Source: Bacteroidota bacterium
Lineage (GTDB): Bacteria > Bacteroidota > Ignavibacteria > Palsa-1295
NCBI GenBank assembly: GCA_030706745.1
Contig: JAUZNX010000020.1
Coordinates: 1-48,488 of the forward strand
Length of the DNA stretch: 48,488 nucleotides
Direction of reading: 5' to 3'
Position numbers and translations under genes: made by a program. Shown here in pieces: positions 41,241 through 47,654 of the stretch; position 1 is the stretch's first letter; every line of letters begins with the position of its first letter. The notes beneath the pieces were generated by a model. That model did no database searches, was not told the origin of the DNA, and saw only the letters and a list, made by a program, of their open reading frames with translations.

Positions 41241-42878
41241 TTACTTTCCTTCCATCGGAGTGTACTCGATGGCATGAGAAATGTCGAGAATACGCGTAAT
41301 CCAAACCGCCGAATCGGACGTGGATGCTTCGGCCGGTGCCGGATACCCCGGATACCGAAAAACGTCCGGTGCATAGAACCTCCCACGCATTCGCGGGACA
41401 TACGGCTGGATCTGCTGTTCGTGTGGTTCGACGAGATCCCACAGCATGGCAGATTCGTGAAACTCACGAAGTGGGTATGAGACAATGTAGTATTGGACGC
41501 CATACCGTCGCAGGACGGAAAGGAGGTCGGCACGACCGCGAATGGAATCGACCATCGCCTCATCGGCAGCTAACCCTTCGAGTTGTAGCATCGGCTGATG
41601 GGTCATGAACGCCGTGATGCCAGCGCGATCGCCCATTGCATAGCGGCCGGGATGCGATTCGGTGAAGGGCTGGATGCCAAGCGCGTGAAGATACGGGTGC
41701 TGAGGCGGCAGGCGGAAATTCGTTGTCATCATGGGAATGTCTCGAACCAGAAAGAGAGCGGAGAAGATAATGATGAGTCCCAGAGCCGCGATTCCCGACC
41801 ACTCGGTCCATCGTGTCCACTTGGTCCACTGCTCCCGAAGCAACAGCAGAGCGACCGCCGTTGAAATTGGAAAGGGATAAAAATACCAGAGGTAACTGCT
41901 CCACGTCACCCGCAATGCCAGTAGAAGTGTAAACAGAATTGGAAACGCGACCAACAGAAGACGCACACCACTACGCGCATTCGGCTTTTTCCACGCCCAA
42001 AGCGCGAGCACGAAGCCGATTATCGTTGTCAGGAAATAGAGCGAGCCGCGCGGCGTCCCGATCGCTTCGATGGCGCGGAAGCTAAATCGGAAGCCGCCGG
42101 GCAATTGCTTTACTTGTGCGCTGACCGGAATGAGATCGCCATAAAACACAAAGTCCGAAAGGAGATACAAAACCACCGGCACCAATCCAAAAACAAACCA
42201 GGCCAAGTACCTTGGTAAGACTCGCGATTGGAATAGAAGCACGAGCGCCAGCCCAACGGCAATCACCGTGTCCAGTCGCGCCAGCACGAGGAGCGATCCG
42301 ATAAACCCGGCGAGGAGCAAGCTGCGCCGGTCCATTTGTTCCATCGCGTTCATCACCATCCATGCGAAGAGTAACAGCAAGGGGATGGCGAGTACTGTTT
42401 CCATCCCGGTGAAGATGAGCACTGTTTCGAGAACGGCCGCGCCTAAGCTAACCACATAGAGCCAACTCGATGGCGTGAATAGCCGCGAGAGCAATCGCAT
42501 GAGCAACTCTGCACTGACCATGGCGGAGATGATCTGGATGCCTTCGAGCGCGATGAAGAAGGAGCGATCGTTGCTGCGAACAACAAACGAAACTGCCGAA
42601 AGCACCCACAGCCACAGCGGATGATAGCCGTTAGTCGGTACGATGCCATCGAACGACGAGAAGCCGTGCAACGCGATATTCTTCGCCGTGAGATAATAGT
42701 AGTAGAAATCATCCTGCGGGAAGACGGAGAAGGCAAGCGAACCACGGAACAGATGATAGAGCGGCTCGTAGGCGAGCGCGGCCGCAAATAGGAGGGTTGT
42801 GAGACGAACAATCCAGTCCAAATGACGAATAACGAATGACGAATGACAAATGAAAAGACCTTGTCCCTTATTCGCCAT
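41241..42878 (-). CDS. GT-C type membrane glycosyltransferase (GT39-like) inside the liv operon
   Basis: The protein has 545 residues and about 11-12 membrane helices. After the first helix, FPQDDFYYYYLTAKNIALHG contains the acidic pair expected at a GT-C active site, and VPTNGYHPLWLWVLSA is a typical family motif. A cytosolic loop holds REQWTKWTRWTEWS from a 9-nt repeat. The soluble C-terminus includes RADLLSVLRRYGVQYYIV. The N-terminal ~20 residues (MANKGQGLFICHSSFVIRHL) are encoded by heptamer repeat DNA, so the start codon itself lies in the repeat. The start is nine bases after the livG stop, and the stop is 30 bp before livF. The substrate is unknown; it is probably a lipid-linked sugar transferase. 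Confidence 0.8.
   Translation of the reverse strand: MANKGQGLFICHSSFVIRHLDWIVRLTTLLFAAALAYEPLYHLFRGSLAFSVFPQDDFYYYYLTAKNIALHGFSSFDGIVPTNGYHPLWLWVLSAVSFVVRSNDRSFFIALEGIQIISAMVSAELLMRLLSRLFTPSSWLYVVSLGAAVLETVLIFTGMETVLAIPLLLLFAWMVMNAMEQMDRRSLLLAGFIGSLLVLARLDTVIAVGLALVLLFQSRVLPRYLAWFVFGLVPVVLYLLSDFVFYGDLIPVSAQVKQLPGGFRFSFRAIEAIGTPRGSLYFLTTIIGFVLALWAWKKPNARSGVRLLLVAFPILFTLLLALRVTWSSYLWYFYPFPISTAVALLLLREQWTKWTRWTEWSGIAALGLIIIFSALFLVRDIPMMTTNFRLPPQHPYLHALGIQPFTESHPGRYAMGDRAGITAFMTHQPMLQLEGLAADEAMVDSIRGRADLLSVLRRYGVQYYIVSYPLREFHESAMLWDLVEPHEQQIQPYVPRMRGRFYAPDVFRYPGYPAPAEASTSDSAVWITRILDISHAIEYTPMEGK
41799..41831 (-). repeat. 9-nt repeat encoding W-T-x units (second GT-C gene)
   Basis: On the minus strand, TGGACCAAG, TGGACACGA, TGGACCGAG and TGG encode WTK WTR WTE W. 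This is the same design as at 31864-31893 in the other GT-C gene. Confidence 0.8.
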
Positions 42879-42887: not shown

Positions 42888-43664
42888 CTACTCTGTTACT
42901 TCGCCGAGATAGGCTTCGATCACCTTCGGATCGTTGCGGATTTCGAGCGGTGAACCATGGGCGATCTTGAGACCGTAATCGAGGACGTAAATCCGCTCGC
43001 AGATTCCCATGACGAGCGACATGTCGTGCTCGATGAGTAAGATCGCAATTGAGAATTGCTCGCGAAGTTGCCGGATGAGCCGCATCAGGTTTTGCTTCTC
43101 GACCATGTTCATTCCGGCGGCGGGCTCATCGAGCAAGAGCAGCTTCGGCTCCGTGGCGAGCGCGCGGACGATTTCCAAACGGCGCTGATCGCCATACGGT
43201 AAACTCGTCGCAAGTTCATCGCGCGCATGGCGGAGCTGAAACAGATCGAGCAATTCCTCCACCCGTAGGGCAACCCGCCGCTCGTTCGAGTAGAAGCTGC
43301 CGATGCGGAGCATCGAGCGCCAGTGGCCGAACTTGGTGCGGGGCGTCAGCGATACGCGAATGTTATCGAAAACCGACATCCCGCGAAAGAGCCGAATATT
43401 CTGAAACGTCCGCGCAATTCCGCGGTGGCCGATCGTGTGTGGACGAAGTCCGTTCAGGCGCAGGCCATCGAACAGCACATCGCCTTCGGTCGGCTCGTAG
43501 ACGCCCGTGATGACGTTGAAGACGGTCGTCTTGCCAGCGCCGTTCGGACCGATGAGTCCGACGAGATCGTGCGGACCAATCTCGGCATCGAGATTGCCCA
43601 CGGCGGTCAGTCCGCCGAAGCGCATTGTAACCTTATCGAGCTTGAGACCTGCCAATTGTTTCAC
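42888..43664 (-). CDS. livG: LivG-type ABC transporter ATP-binding protein
   Basis: The protein has 258 residues. Walker A is GPNGAGKTTVFNVITG. The LivG-specific segment reads TIGHRGIARTFQNIRLFRGMSVFDNIRV. The signature is LPYGDQRRLEIVRAL, a variant of LSYGxQRRLEIARAL. Walker B is LLLLDEPAAGMN, and the H-loop is LIEHDMSLVMGI. The C-terminal LivG extension (GSPLEIRNDPKVIEAYLGE) is complete. It should pair with LivF at 40500-41210. The start MKQLAGLKLDKVTMRFGGLTAV agrees with the family. It heads the livG-glycosyltransferase-livF run. Confidence 0.94.
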   Translation of the reverse strand: MKQLAGLKLDKVTMRFGGLTAVGNLDAEIGPHDLVGLIGPNGAGKTTVFNVITGVYEPTEGDVLFDGLRLNGLRPHTIGHRGIARTFQNIRLFRGMSVFDNIRVSLTPRTKFGHWRSMLRIGSFYSNERRVALRVEELLDLFQLRHARDELATSLPYGDQRRLEIVRALATEPKLLLLDEPAAGMNMVEKQNLMRLIRQLREQFSIAILLIEHDMSLVMGICERIYVLDYGLKIAHGSPLEIRNDPKVIEAYLGEVTE

Positions 43665-43735
43665 ATAGCGTTAAACGATGTGAAACCTGGATACGGTTCT
43701 CGATAAGCGGAACGTATCATTGGTGCACTTCTCAA

Positions 43736-44275
43736 CTACCAAGGATGTATGACGCAACCAGCATTGATTCCACAATCTTCATCATGGTAATCATGAGCTA
43801 CCCTATCACATCCACTTGAAGTAAGCACTGCATCGATAATGTGATAACGGACTTGGCCTGGAGGACAGGTGGGGTCGCTCTCATATACGAAAACATCGAG
43901 CTCGGTAAGCGAACCACAAGTCACGGTATAAGTTATATTCCCATTCGCATCAACTGTGTTCGGCTTCGGGTCTAAAGGGTCAGCACTCTCAACTTCGATA
44001 ATATCGGAACGATATTTAGGACCGCCGCTCGTTATATGCGGCTGAGGAACTGGCTCTTCTTCCACGTGCGTGGGAGAAGTATAGCCGCAACCGCCGACAT
44101 AGAGGTGTGCTTTGCAAGGTGGAGGACATGGCGGCGGCGGCGGGGTGCCGCCGCCCGTTGTGGTGGTAGAGGATTCGCTACATTCGTAACCCGTTGTGGT
44201 CAATGCTAATAACATCGATACCACAAGAACTCGTGTTACTTTCCTTGAATACCACATAGAGAACATGTTCTTCAT
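43736..44275 (-). CDS. Small exported Cys- and Pro-rich protein of unknown function
   Basis: The family was not recognised. The 179 residues include an N-terminal hydrophobic export signal (VTRVLVVSMLLALTTTGYEC), and the Cys at ~32 could be a lipidation site. A linker of Thr/Gly/Pro with PPPPPCPPPC follows. The remaining region has about ten cysteines (VGGCGYTSP, TCGSLTEL, DPTCPPGQVRYHI, SGCDRVAHDYHDEDCGINAGCVIHPW), suggesting several disulfides. GGAGG lies seven bases before the ATG, a good Shine-Dalgarno. It is 14 bp downstream of a lipoprotein gene on the same strand. The base composition is AT-richer than in surrounding housekeeping genes. Confidence 0.7.
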   Translation of the reverse strand: MKNMFSMWYSRKVTRVLVVSMLLALTTTGYECSESSTTTTGGGTPPPPPCPPPCKAHLYVGGCGYTSPTHVEEEPVPQPHITSGGPKYRSDIIEVESADPLDPKPNTVDANGNITYTVTCGSLTELDVFVYESDPTCPPGQVRYHIIDAVLTSSGCDRVAHDYHDEDCGINAGCVIHPW

Positions 44276-44289
44276 AAATCCCTCCCCAA

Positions 44290-45078
44290 TTAGTTCTTGA
44301 TAATACCATACGTGCGCGCTCGACTAACCGCAGCCACGACATATTCTTTGCTCGCTACGTAAATCCTCTTGTAATTGTAGGCTGCAATAAAGATCTGAAT
44401 GACGCCCGAACTCGGGAATGCAGCAAGCATTGCAGAACCAACGAAAAAGGAACCCGTATTTGGAACCACGGTGTCGACTGGGTCTGGCCGCATATTATGT
44501 ATGCCAGTATCAATTACACCCGTCATAACCGAATCATAGGCTATCTGAATAGCCACCGAATCTGTACCGGGATTGCCGTAGGTACATGAGAATCCGGTGG
44601 TCTTCGAAACCGTGTCGATTATCGGCCTCGGATATGTTACATGAAAGAAACTTGGCGCTTGGACGGTGGTGTCCATTGATGGAACAGTTCCGGAAGTATT
44701 TCCGGCCACTTGCCAGTGGTGAGAGGTCGCAAAAGGTTGATTAGTCGTTGTGATGTAGAGATTGTCACTAGCAGGTATGGAAATCCCATTAAGCATAACA
44801 TCCCCAGCTGATACAGGAAATGTCGATGTTGTGTCGAAGAACTGCGCCATCGTCGTGTATCTCGTCCAATAAGTGCCAGCCACATTACTGGCACCGAGGG
44901 GATTTTCTGTAATCAGGCACTGGCAAAGCATTACACCCGAAATAGTATCCGAACCGGCTATGATCATCCCCGGAGCAAGCGAGAGCGGCTGATGCTTTCC
45001 GCCCGGAGATAGTGGTGGCTCGGTCTTGCAGGCGCTTACGCCGGCAAGAAGCAGAACGATAAAAAGCGGGTTTCTCAT
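44290..45078 (-). CDS. Lipoprotein of unknown function
   Basis: The protein has 262 residues with a lipoprotein signal (MRNPLFIVLLLAGVSAC, lipobox VSAC, Cys17). The mature part is Thr/Ser-rich and appears beta-stranded (GMIIAGSDTISGVMLCQCL; DNLYITTTNQPFATSHHWQV; GNPGTDSVAIQIAYDSVMTG). No domain was recognised. AGGAG lies ~9 bases before the ATG. It is followed by the Cys/Pro-rich exported protein gene with 11 bases between stop and Shine-Dalgarno, and is preceded by the DUF1573-cytochrome gene, so the three probably form one operon of envelope proteins. Confidence 0.75.
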   Translation of the reverse strand: MRNPLFIVLLLAGVSACKTEPPLSPGGKHQPLSLAPGMIIAGSDTISGVMLCQCLITENPLGASNVAGTYWTRYTTMAQFFDTTSTFPVSAGDVMLNGISIPASDNLYITTTNQPFATSHHWQVAGNTSGTVPSMDTTVQAPSFFHVTYPRPIIDTVSKTTGFSCTYGNPGTDSVAIQIAYDSVMTGVIDTGIHNMRPDPVDTVVPNTGSFFVGSAMLAAFPSSGVIQIFIAAYNYKRIYVASKEYVVAAVSRARTYGIIKN

Positions 45079-45102
45079 ATATTGTCTCCTGTCTAAAAAG
45101 TC

Positions 45103-45858
45103 CTACTTCATTGAATAGCGATTCGATCGTTCGATCCGTATGTATTGACAGAGTGTCTTAATTTCCTGAGCCGTTAACGGGCCGCCCTTCTGCCAGTCAA
45201 ACGCAGGCATGTTTGTCCCGTGCTTCCCATCGAGAATCGTCCGAAAGAGATACGTCTCGCCTAATTCTTTTTGCGAGGTTACTAAATCGGACGCCGGTTT
45301 CCCTTCCGCCCTCGCTCCATGGCAGATTGCACAATCTGCCGCGTAGAGTGTCTTTCCAAGCTGCCCGCGCCCTCGATTCACATGGCATTCGGCGCAGCGT
45401 CCCGAAAAGATATTCTGGATGCTCATTGCCGCGTTGTGCGGTCTGCTTGGCATTACAATCAATCCATGGAATCTCAAGATTTCCTGATTCGGTGTAGCGT
45501 TCGAGATGAGCGACACCGTTTTGGCATAAGGTCCTAACTCTTTACCAACCGAGCTAAACAACACCTTCAGCGAGGCCGAACATGATGGCGGGATTATGTG
45601 GGTGCTCAACCGGGCGTCAGTGCATCCGCAAGAGGGCTTAACGGCACTAATTCTTAGTGTGTCCGAACCAGAGTTATGGATTTGGTACGTATACCCGACA
45701 CTATCGCCCTGTTCTAACTTTCCCAGATCAACATCGGCTGAATCTACCGCGATCTTCACGTCGGTAGCGGCATGACCTGACGCTTTTGAGTGATTAAATA
45801 GTGAATATCCCGCAACAAGCAGCGTGAGGACGAGTAGAGTGCTGAGAACCTTCACCAT
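45103..45858 (-). CDS. DUF1573 domain fused to a diheme c-type cytochrome
   Basis: The protein has 251 residues. The N-terminal membrane anchor or signal is MVKVLSTLLVLTLLVAGYSLF. Residues ~33-135 are a DUF1573 immunoglobulin-like domain (DVDLGKLEQGDSVGYTYQIHNSGSDTLRISAVKPSCGCTDARLS). Residues ~145-245 are cytochrome c-like with two CxxCH sites, CAECH and CAICH, and GTNMPAFDW as a possible Met ligand, ending TAQEIKTLCQYIR. It is probably a periplasmic electron carrier. The start codon lies in the 3' arm of a perfect 14-bp hairpin (45853-45884), preceded by a (CT)8 run, so translation may be regulated. It is first in a three-gene envelope operon. Confidence 0.85.
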   Translation of the reverse strand: MVKVLSTLLVLTLLVAGYSLFNHSKASGHAATDVKIAVDSADVDLGKLEQGDSVGYTYQIHNSGSDTLRISAVKPSCGCTDARLSTHIIPPSCSASLKVLFSSVGKELGPYAKTVSLISNATPNQEILRFHGLIVMPSRPHNAAMSIQNIFSGRCAECHVNRGRGQLGKTLYAADCAICHGARAEGKPASDLVTSQKELGETYLFRTILDGKHGTNMPAFDWQKGGPLTAQEIKTLCQYIRIERSNRYSMK

Positions 45859-45884
45859 TTTGAAAACTACTTTTCAAAATGGTG
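45853..45884 (-). promoter_or_regulatory. Perfect 14-bp hairpin that contains the start codon
   Basis: CACCATTTTGAAAA (45853-45866) and TTTTCAAAATGGTG (45871-45884) are exact reverse complements around CTAC. In the minus-strand mRNA, the ATG (45858-45856) is inside the second arm, so the folded leader would hide the start. Confidence 0.75.
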
Positions 45885-45888
45885 TAAT

Positions 45889-45904
45889 CTCTCTCTCTCT
45901 CTCT
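45889..45904. repeat. (CT)8 dinucleotide run upstream of the DUF1573-cytochrome gene
   Basis: Eight CT units ((AG)8 on the transcribed side) lie 31-46 bp upstream of the start codon. Such runs can change length by slippage. Confidence 0.85.
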
Positions 45905-45951
45905 GATAATTCCCTAAAACCAGAGAAAACTTCTATTTCGTGAAAACTATG

Positions 45952-47073
45952 TCAGGACGTTTTGACTTCAGGCTTTACAAACGGTGGCTTCTGGACGCGG
46001 GCACGGATGCGCTTGCCGGGCCGCACTTCGACCAGCACTTCCGTGCCGTCCTTTGCCATCGCGGTCGGGACGTAGCCCATGGCGATCGGCTGGTTCAACA
46101 TCGGCGAAAGATTGCCGCTGGTGATTTCGCCGATCGTATAGCCGCTTTCATCGACAATCTTGTGGCCGTGCCGCATGATCGCGCCTTTTTCGTCCGTGAT
46201 GAGTCCGACCAGTTTGCGCGTGAGCCCGCGCTCTTTGATTTCGCGCAACGCCGGGAATGCGTGGCACTCTGGCGTCTTGTTTAATTTTGTGATCCAGCCC
46301 AAACCGGCTTCGAGGGGGTTCGTCTCTTCGGTGATATCATTACCATAGAGGCAGTACCCCATTTCGAGACGGAGTGTATCGCGGGCGCCGAGCCCGATTG
46401 GTTCGAGTCCGCCGACGGCTTTGCCTGCTTCGAAGATCGCATCCCACACTTTATCGGCATTGCCCTCGTGAGGAAACCAAATCTCATAGCCGGGCTCGCC
46501 AGTGTAGCCCGTTCGCGAGATGCCGCATTGCACGCCGGCCAGTTCGCCGCTGGTGAAATGATAATACTCAATCTTGCTCAGATCGACTTTCGTCAGCGAT
46601 TGCAGCGCCGTTTGCGCGCCTTTGCCCTGAATGGCGAGCAGCGCTGTCTCTTCGGTGAAATTCTTAAGCTTGACATTGAACTTCGGCGCGTACTTATTGA
46701 ACCAGGCCCAGTCTTTTTCCATCGTTGCGCCGTTAACGATGATCATGTAGTGGTTGGGTTCGATGTAATAGATGATCAGATCGTCGAGGATGGTGCCGTG
46801 CTCGTTCGGCAGGCATCCATATTGCGCCTGACCCGGGACGAGCGTGCTGACATCGTTCGTCGTCAGCGTTTGGAGGAAGGTGAGTGCGTCGGGTCCGGCG
46901 ACATCGAACTCGCCCATGTGCGAGACATCGAAGACGCCGCCGGCGCCTTCGCGGACGGCCTTGTGCTCGGCGATGATACCTTTTGAATATTGAACGGGCA
47001 TCTCGTAACCGGCAAATTCAACGATCTTGCCGCCGGCCGCGATGTGCTTCTGGTAAAAGGGAGTGCGTTTCAC
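45952..47073 (-). CDS. gcvT: Glycine cleavage system T protein (aminomethyltransferase)
   Basis: The protein has 373 residues with the GTG start at 47073 ([29 protein letters not shown]). The frame continues upstream to 47235, but the family N-terminus and a perfect -7 element 31 bp before the GTG favour this start. Motifs: [43 protein letters not shown]-like folate-binding region (here GCLPNEHG), [37 protein letters not shown], and C-terminal barrel [19 protein letters not shown]. It transfers the methylene group from the H-protein aminomethyl-lipoyl arm to tetrahydrofolate. No gcvH or gcvP is in the window. Confidence 0.95.
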
Positions 47074-47103
47074 GTATGGAGATTGGTCTTGAGTGTTGGA
47101 GTA

Positions 47104-47189: not shown

Positions 47190-47654
47190 ATGAAGAATTC
47201 TGGGCGTTCGTATTTCCGGTGGCTGATCCCGACAAGTCTTATCGTGCTCCTCGCGAGTGGATCATTGATTGCAACTCGCGCGCACTCTTCTTTGGCGGGC
47301 CTGCGAGCCCAGACCGATAGTGTGAACTATCAGGCCATGAGCCACACTGAAAAGAAAGAGTACATGCGCGATGTTCTGACGCCGGAATTCGCCCGAATGT
47401 TCACGGCTTTCGATGCCAAGCGATTTCCGACTGTGAAATGCGTCACGTGCCACGGTAATGGCGCGCGTACCGGAGAGTTCAAGATGCCGGATGAGAAGTT
47501 GCCAAAGCTCCCAAGATCTGAAGCCGGGATGAAGAGACTCGAAAAGAAGATGCCGGCCATCGTCAGGTTCATGCGCGATAGCGTCGCGACCCGCACCGCC
47601 TCACTGCTTGGAGTGAAGGAGTATAAGTGCGAAGGCTGTCATGTGATGAAGTGA
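47190..47654 (+). CDS. Small exported protein with two haem c sites
   Basis: The protein has 154 residues. The signal or anchor is FRWLIPTSLIVLLASGSLIATRAHS after a basic start (MKNSGRSY). Two CxxCH sites, CVTCHGNG (~residue 86) and CEGCHVMK at the extreme C-terminus, would each bind haem. Between them, FKMPDEKLPKLPRSEAGMKRLEKKMPAIVRFMRDSV is helical and Met/Lys-rich. It may be a periplasmic electron carrier. The family is not certain; the YMRDVLTPEFARMFTAFD segment resembles cytochromes in which a helix precedes the first haem. It is divergent from gcvT, with 116 bp between the starts. Confidence 0.82.
   Translation: MKNSGRSYFRWLIPTSLIVLLASGSLIATRAHSSLAGLRAQTDSVNYQAMSHTEKKEYMRDVLTPEFARMFTAFDAKRFPTVKCVTCHGNGARTGEFKMPDEKLPKLPRSEAGMKRLEKKMPAIVRFMRDSVATRTASLLGVKEYKCEGCHVMK

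Follow-up and report, generated by a model that had tools for sequence, protein, structure and literature searches.

When the start codon of a gene lies within a perfect inverted repeat, is the repeat a regulator of that gene, or has it arisen there without a role of its own? This question is raised by a DUF1573 and c-type cytochrome gene in a Bacteroidota bacterium of the class Ignavibacteria, analyzed here as part of a 48,488-nucleotide contig (JAUZNX010000020.1; hereafter, the window). An earlier note on this DNA placed the ATG of the gene inside a perfect 14-bp hairpin next to a (CT)8 run and saw in this arrangement a translational switch or a phase-variation element. The positions given there were correct, and the two arms, CACCATTTTGAAAA at 45853-45866 and TTTTCAAAATGGTG at 45871-45884 of the plus strand, are fully complementary, enclosing the plus-strand loop CTAC. 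The features discussed below are collected in Table 1.

Table 1. Positions of the hairpin, of the leader elements, and of the surrounding genes in the window
Feature	Positions	Strand	Remark
livG-like ABC ATPase gene, downstream neighbor	42888-43664	-	adjoins gcvT in nine relatives
Inserted cassette, approximate extent (~2.3 kb), between gcvT and livG	43665-45951		GC 48.8%
Cys/Pro-rich lipoprotein-like gene, third in cassette	43736-44275	-	GGGGAGG upstream of ATG
Lipoprotein-like gene, second in cassette	44290-45078	-	AGGAG upstream of ATG
DUF1573 and c-type cytochrome gene	45103-45858	-	251 aa, two CxxCH, N-terminal signal-like segment
Perfect 14-bp hairpin, 4-nt loop (RNA GUAG)	45853-45884	-	start codon in 3' arm
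ATG start codon	45856-45858	-	in hairpin 3' arm
In-frame TGA	45874-45876	-	hairpin 5' arm, between AG run and ATG; six codons before ATG
(AG)8 run in leader (plus-strand (CT)8)	45889-45904	-	only one in 3.8-Mb genome
gcvT, upstream neighbor, same direction	45952-47100	-	

The start of the cytochrome gene was called at the ATG, and the length of the N terminus agrees within 1-2 residues with that of the homolog in a congeneric genome, G006. The codon directly following the ATG is an in-frame GTG (45853-45855, minus strand), which is likewise inside the stem; thus, the start would be paired whether ATG or GTG is used. Folding of the leader gave a predicted ensemble dominated by the 14-bp stem, with -16.2 kcal/mol for the hairpin and a start-codon pairing probability above 0.99. 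Compared to 325 sampled genes, the start sites of which are approximate, pairing of the start codon was 0.999 versus a median of 0.60, and the start region ranked 9th in pairing. A stable stem on the coding strand takes in the start codon, as in a start-codon-sequestering leader hairpin, and these predictions speak strongly for a sequestered start codon on messages that include both arms. To that extent, the proposed translational switch has support from folding, provided that both arms are transcribed. The conditional part found no support: an Rfam search of the hairpin region returned matches at noise level only and no family, no competing stem or leader open reading frame was seen in the leader, and no ATG, GTG, or TTG that could begin a leader peptide occurs between the gcvT stop codon and the hairpin. 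The known family or competing structure that would characterize a thermometer or riboswitch is thus missing from this leader.

How unusual such a stem appears depends on the yardstick. First-order random sequences with the length and dinucleotide content of the window contained 0.0 stems of at least 14 bp and 0.025 stems of at least 12 bp. The real genome is the fairer comparison; about 836 kb of it, sampled as stretches rather than as the whole 3.8 Mb, held 28 perfect stems of 12 bp or more, including 12 of 14 bp or more, and a perfect stem of comparable size is met roughly every 70 kb. A 14-bp stem alone is not rare here. Many of the sampled stems lie just past gene ends, within a few dozen bases (15-60 nt), and some of these carry U-tracts, as expected of terminators. 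What is unusual is the overlap of the stem with a well-supported start codon, of which there was no other case among the sampled stems. Stem C14, near an open reading frame start (L118:3202-3234), was considered as a second case and rejected because the true start of the AP-endonuclease-like gene at that place probably lies downstream of the stem.

The frequency of perfect stems in this genome bears on a real possibility, namely, that the hairpin has no selected role, whatever its effect on expression. The inverted repeat might have been created or completed by a template switch, and the (AG)8 run by slippage, in the AT-rich spacer of an insertion. A single template-switching event is enough to produce a perfect stem (PMC8794818), and the leader of the cytochrome gene has a GC content of just 32%. 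The hairpin is also single-copy: its sequence was found once in the 3.8-Mb genome even with up to three mismatches allowed, which likewise led us to reject membership in a REP or other dispersed palindrome family. On the other hand, an incidental origin does not account for the precise overlap with the start codon, and a stem that sits at the start codon of an intact gene and strongly inhibits it should be counter-selected unless it is tolerated.

The cytochrome gene encodes a putatively exported heme protein that scores above the Pfam cut-offs for both parts of the protein, with 71 bits for DUF1573 (PF07610, 7e-20) and 47 and 38 bits for the cytochrome c families PF13442 and PF00034, respectively; the reading frame is intact and both heme motifs are kept. 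DUF1573-cytochrome c fusions in the same Bacteroidota family share the domain order, DUF1573 followed by cytochrome c, and most relatives searched have a gene 35-42% identical to the DUF1573-cytochrome c gene. Compared to these genes of the family, the gene in the window is an extra copy, with a close counterpart of its cassette in G006 only. In that congener, the same three genes stand together at a different genomic place, the cytochrome being 57% identical. Among 391 genomes of the class, G006 was the only other one with the cassette, and G009 has the second gene alone; among GTDB r220 contigs, just one cassette locus was found. The G006 cassette has a different upstream region, with a TTG start after AAAGG and a start-codon pairing of 0.22-0.94. 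A comparable hairpin is absent from it, which speaks for an incidental palindrome, and this single homologous cassette is too small a comparison for covariation. Two small paralogous proteins with weak similarity to sigma-70 region 4 (L093:261-668 and L093:3320-3790) precede, in G006, the cassette and another group of genes that includes one for a di-heme peroxidase-like protein, whereas the window has gcvT upstream instead. As a further observation in G009, two adjacent open reading frames (L092:6563-8017) both start with MTIRTDPHRSA, which suggests that a short sequence is repeated ahead of each gene.

Nine relatives from three genera have livG directly after gcvT, the two genes ranging from overlapping to about 64 nt apart. 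The cassette therefore sits within what looks like a conserved gcvT-livG operon. Its GC content is below that of the window (54.3%), and third-position GC is 0.44-0.56 in its genes versus 0.71-0.73 in gcvT and livG. Based on the gcvT-livG adjacency in relatives, the lower GC content, and the presence of the same three genes elsewhere in G006, the three-gene segment is most simply read as an insertion, with the hairpin in its upstream spacer. At the ends of the insert, a search for a repeat family or terminal repeats gave only 7-base chance matches. At the livG end (43658-43686, minus strand), GTTTCACAT and ATGTGAAAC form a 9-bp inverted repeat around a loop of 11 nt. The GTG at 43664, which is probably the livG start, lies in its 3' arm and is paired at about 1.0 upon folding. 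This repeat is possibly due to chance. Elsewhere around the locus, the gene at 41241-42878, which separates livG from the following ABC gene and encodes a membrane protein, is present in G004 and G005 and apparently missing in the closest relative, G001. A small exported CxxCH protein without a Pfam match is encoded divergently from gcvT at 47190-47654 and has 68% identity in G001.

Since many perfect stems of this genome lie 15-60 nt past gene ends, the hairpin, 68 nt past the gcvT stop codon, could instead mark the 3' end of the gcvT mRNA as a terminator or an RNA-stability hairpin. We consider this quite improbable. An intrinsic terminator has a GC-rich stem followed by a U-tract, and here the stem is followed by AAGGTTCTCAGC, which is no U-tract; the terminator scan found none, and termination at this site would cut off livG, the conserved neighbor of gcvT. 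As neither a U-tract after the stem nor a terminator-like site in the scan was detected, read-through from gcvT into the cassette is plausible.

In another reading, the palindrome acts at the DNA level, as an operator or promoter of the cassette, and transcription begins within or beyond the hairpin; the mRNA would then have a short leader or none, and no RNA hairpin would form. Such an arrangement would suit an acquired cassette, which would depend on a promoter of its own where read-through from gcvT did not suffice; the palindrome is as symmetrical in DNA as in RNA, and TAGTTTTC in the loop region partly resembles, by eye, the Bacteroidota -7 element. It is nevertheless unlikely, because a promoter scan of the leader on the strand of the gene found neither a sigma-70-type site nor a Bacteroidota-type pattern (TTTG-N18-22-TANNTTTG, at most two mismatches), a 14-bp half-site exceeds typical operators, and the site has no second copy in the genome.

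The lack of a visible Shine-Dalgarno (SD) sequence at the cytochrome gene, pointed out in the earlier note, is true but uninformative, given that such sequences are scarce genome-wide. A core SD motif stands at a suitable distance before about 13% of the 325 sampled genes, with 8% and 4% at control positions, and Bacteroidota are known as a phylum lacking SD sequences (PMC3155529; PMC6847099). A missing SD sequence is thus ordinary for this genome. The second and third cassette genes do have SD-like sequences upstream of their ATG codons (Table 1).

Against this background, we propose that the hairpin is probably a damper that acts in cis on translation from read-through messages; an incidental palindrome comes close behind as an explanation. 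Transcription continuing from gcvT would yield messages that contain both arms of the hairpin, and on these the stem would hold initiation at the cytochrome gene very low, while the second and third cassette genes, equipped with their own SD-like sequences, would initiate unaffected. Higher expression of the cytochrome would be possible only if a transcript began within the hairpin or some factor opened the stem. We call the damper static and do not speak of a switch, since the leader showed no competing structure, no leader peptide, and no match to a known RNA family. In Flavobacterium, initiation is tuned by structure near the start (PMC6847099). For Prevotella bryantii, protein fell to 12% and 0.7% of control when structures of -5.2 and -11.1 kcal/mol, respectively, covered the SD region, with mRNA levels roughly similar (PMC3155529); by analogy, a comparable stem should nearly silence translation of transcripts carrying both arms. 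Three points weigh against the damper. The hairpin is not shared by the only other cassette found, that of G006, so that conservation and covariation are lacking; perfect stems of such size are a regular occurrence in this genome, as described above; and sharp silencing should lead a gene to decay, whereas the cytochrome gene looks intact. Taken together, a start-sequestering hairpin in the spacer of an inserted cassette, acting as a static damper, is the best overall explanation, with a probability of roughly 0.4. A more specific proposal goes further and makes the hairpin a read-through insulator, with the cassette cytochrome silent on gcvT-livG transcripts and translated only from transcripts of its own promoter that begin within the stem, in a bacterium with very little use of SD sequences; this we regard as improbable.

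The (AG)8 run sits 4 nt upstream of the 5' arm of the hairpin. Its uniqueness in the genome, and the fact that such runs can slip, would favor a phase-variable element in which the length of (AG)n alters expression. An in-frame TGA separates the run from the ATG, and the sequence ahead of the run contains no start codon; slippage is therefore unable to shift the frame of the gene, and a change of frame by repeat length, the mark of a phase-variable repeat gene, does not occur here. Nor would the length of the run act through the hairpin, as the start codon stayed paired at above 0.99, unchanged, when the leader was folded with 0 to 12 AG units. Altered promoter spacing is formally possible, but no promoter elements were found flanking the run. 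The frameshift form of phase variation is thus excluded from the sequence, phase variation as a whole is largely rejected, and expression control by the length of the run is highly improbable.

In summary, the observation of a start codon within a perfect hairpin was confirmed, and its interpretation was supported in part: sequestration is predicted by folding, conditional switching is without support, and phase variation is largely rejected. If the stem works as predicted, it provides a natural test case for the control of translation by start-codon structure in bacteria with low SD usage, and also for the restraint of an acquired gene within a housekeeping operon. If it is incidental, the locus illustrates that an insertion site can acquire a striking start-codon hairpin with no regulatory role.

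Inverted repeats in the leaders of IS10- and IS50-type elements protect transposase genes from read-through transcripts. The hairpin described here is similar in that it would block initiation only on transcripts entering a newly inserted unit from outside. It differs in that the cassette has neither a transposase nor terminal repeats and that no promoter starting inside the repeat was found. RNA thermometers and riboswitches sequester initiation sites, and the placement of the start region in a stem is shared with them; unlike these elements, the leader has neither an Rfam match nor an alternative structure, and the stability of a perfect 14-bp stem would be unusual in a thermometer. Another parallel is offered by the P. 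bryantii nucB constructs (PMC3155529), in which a stable stem likewise covers the initiation region in a phylum with low SD usage and for which a strong loss of translation is likewise expected. Those structures were engineered and cover the SD region, whereas the stem at the cytochrome gene is natural and more stable, has a predicted effect, and holds the start codon itself.
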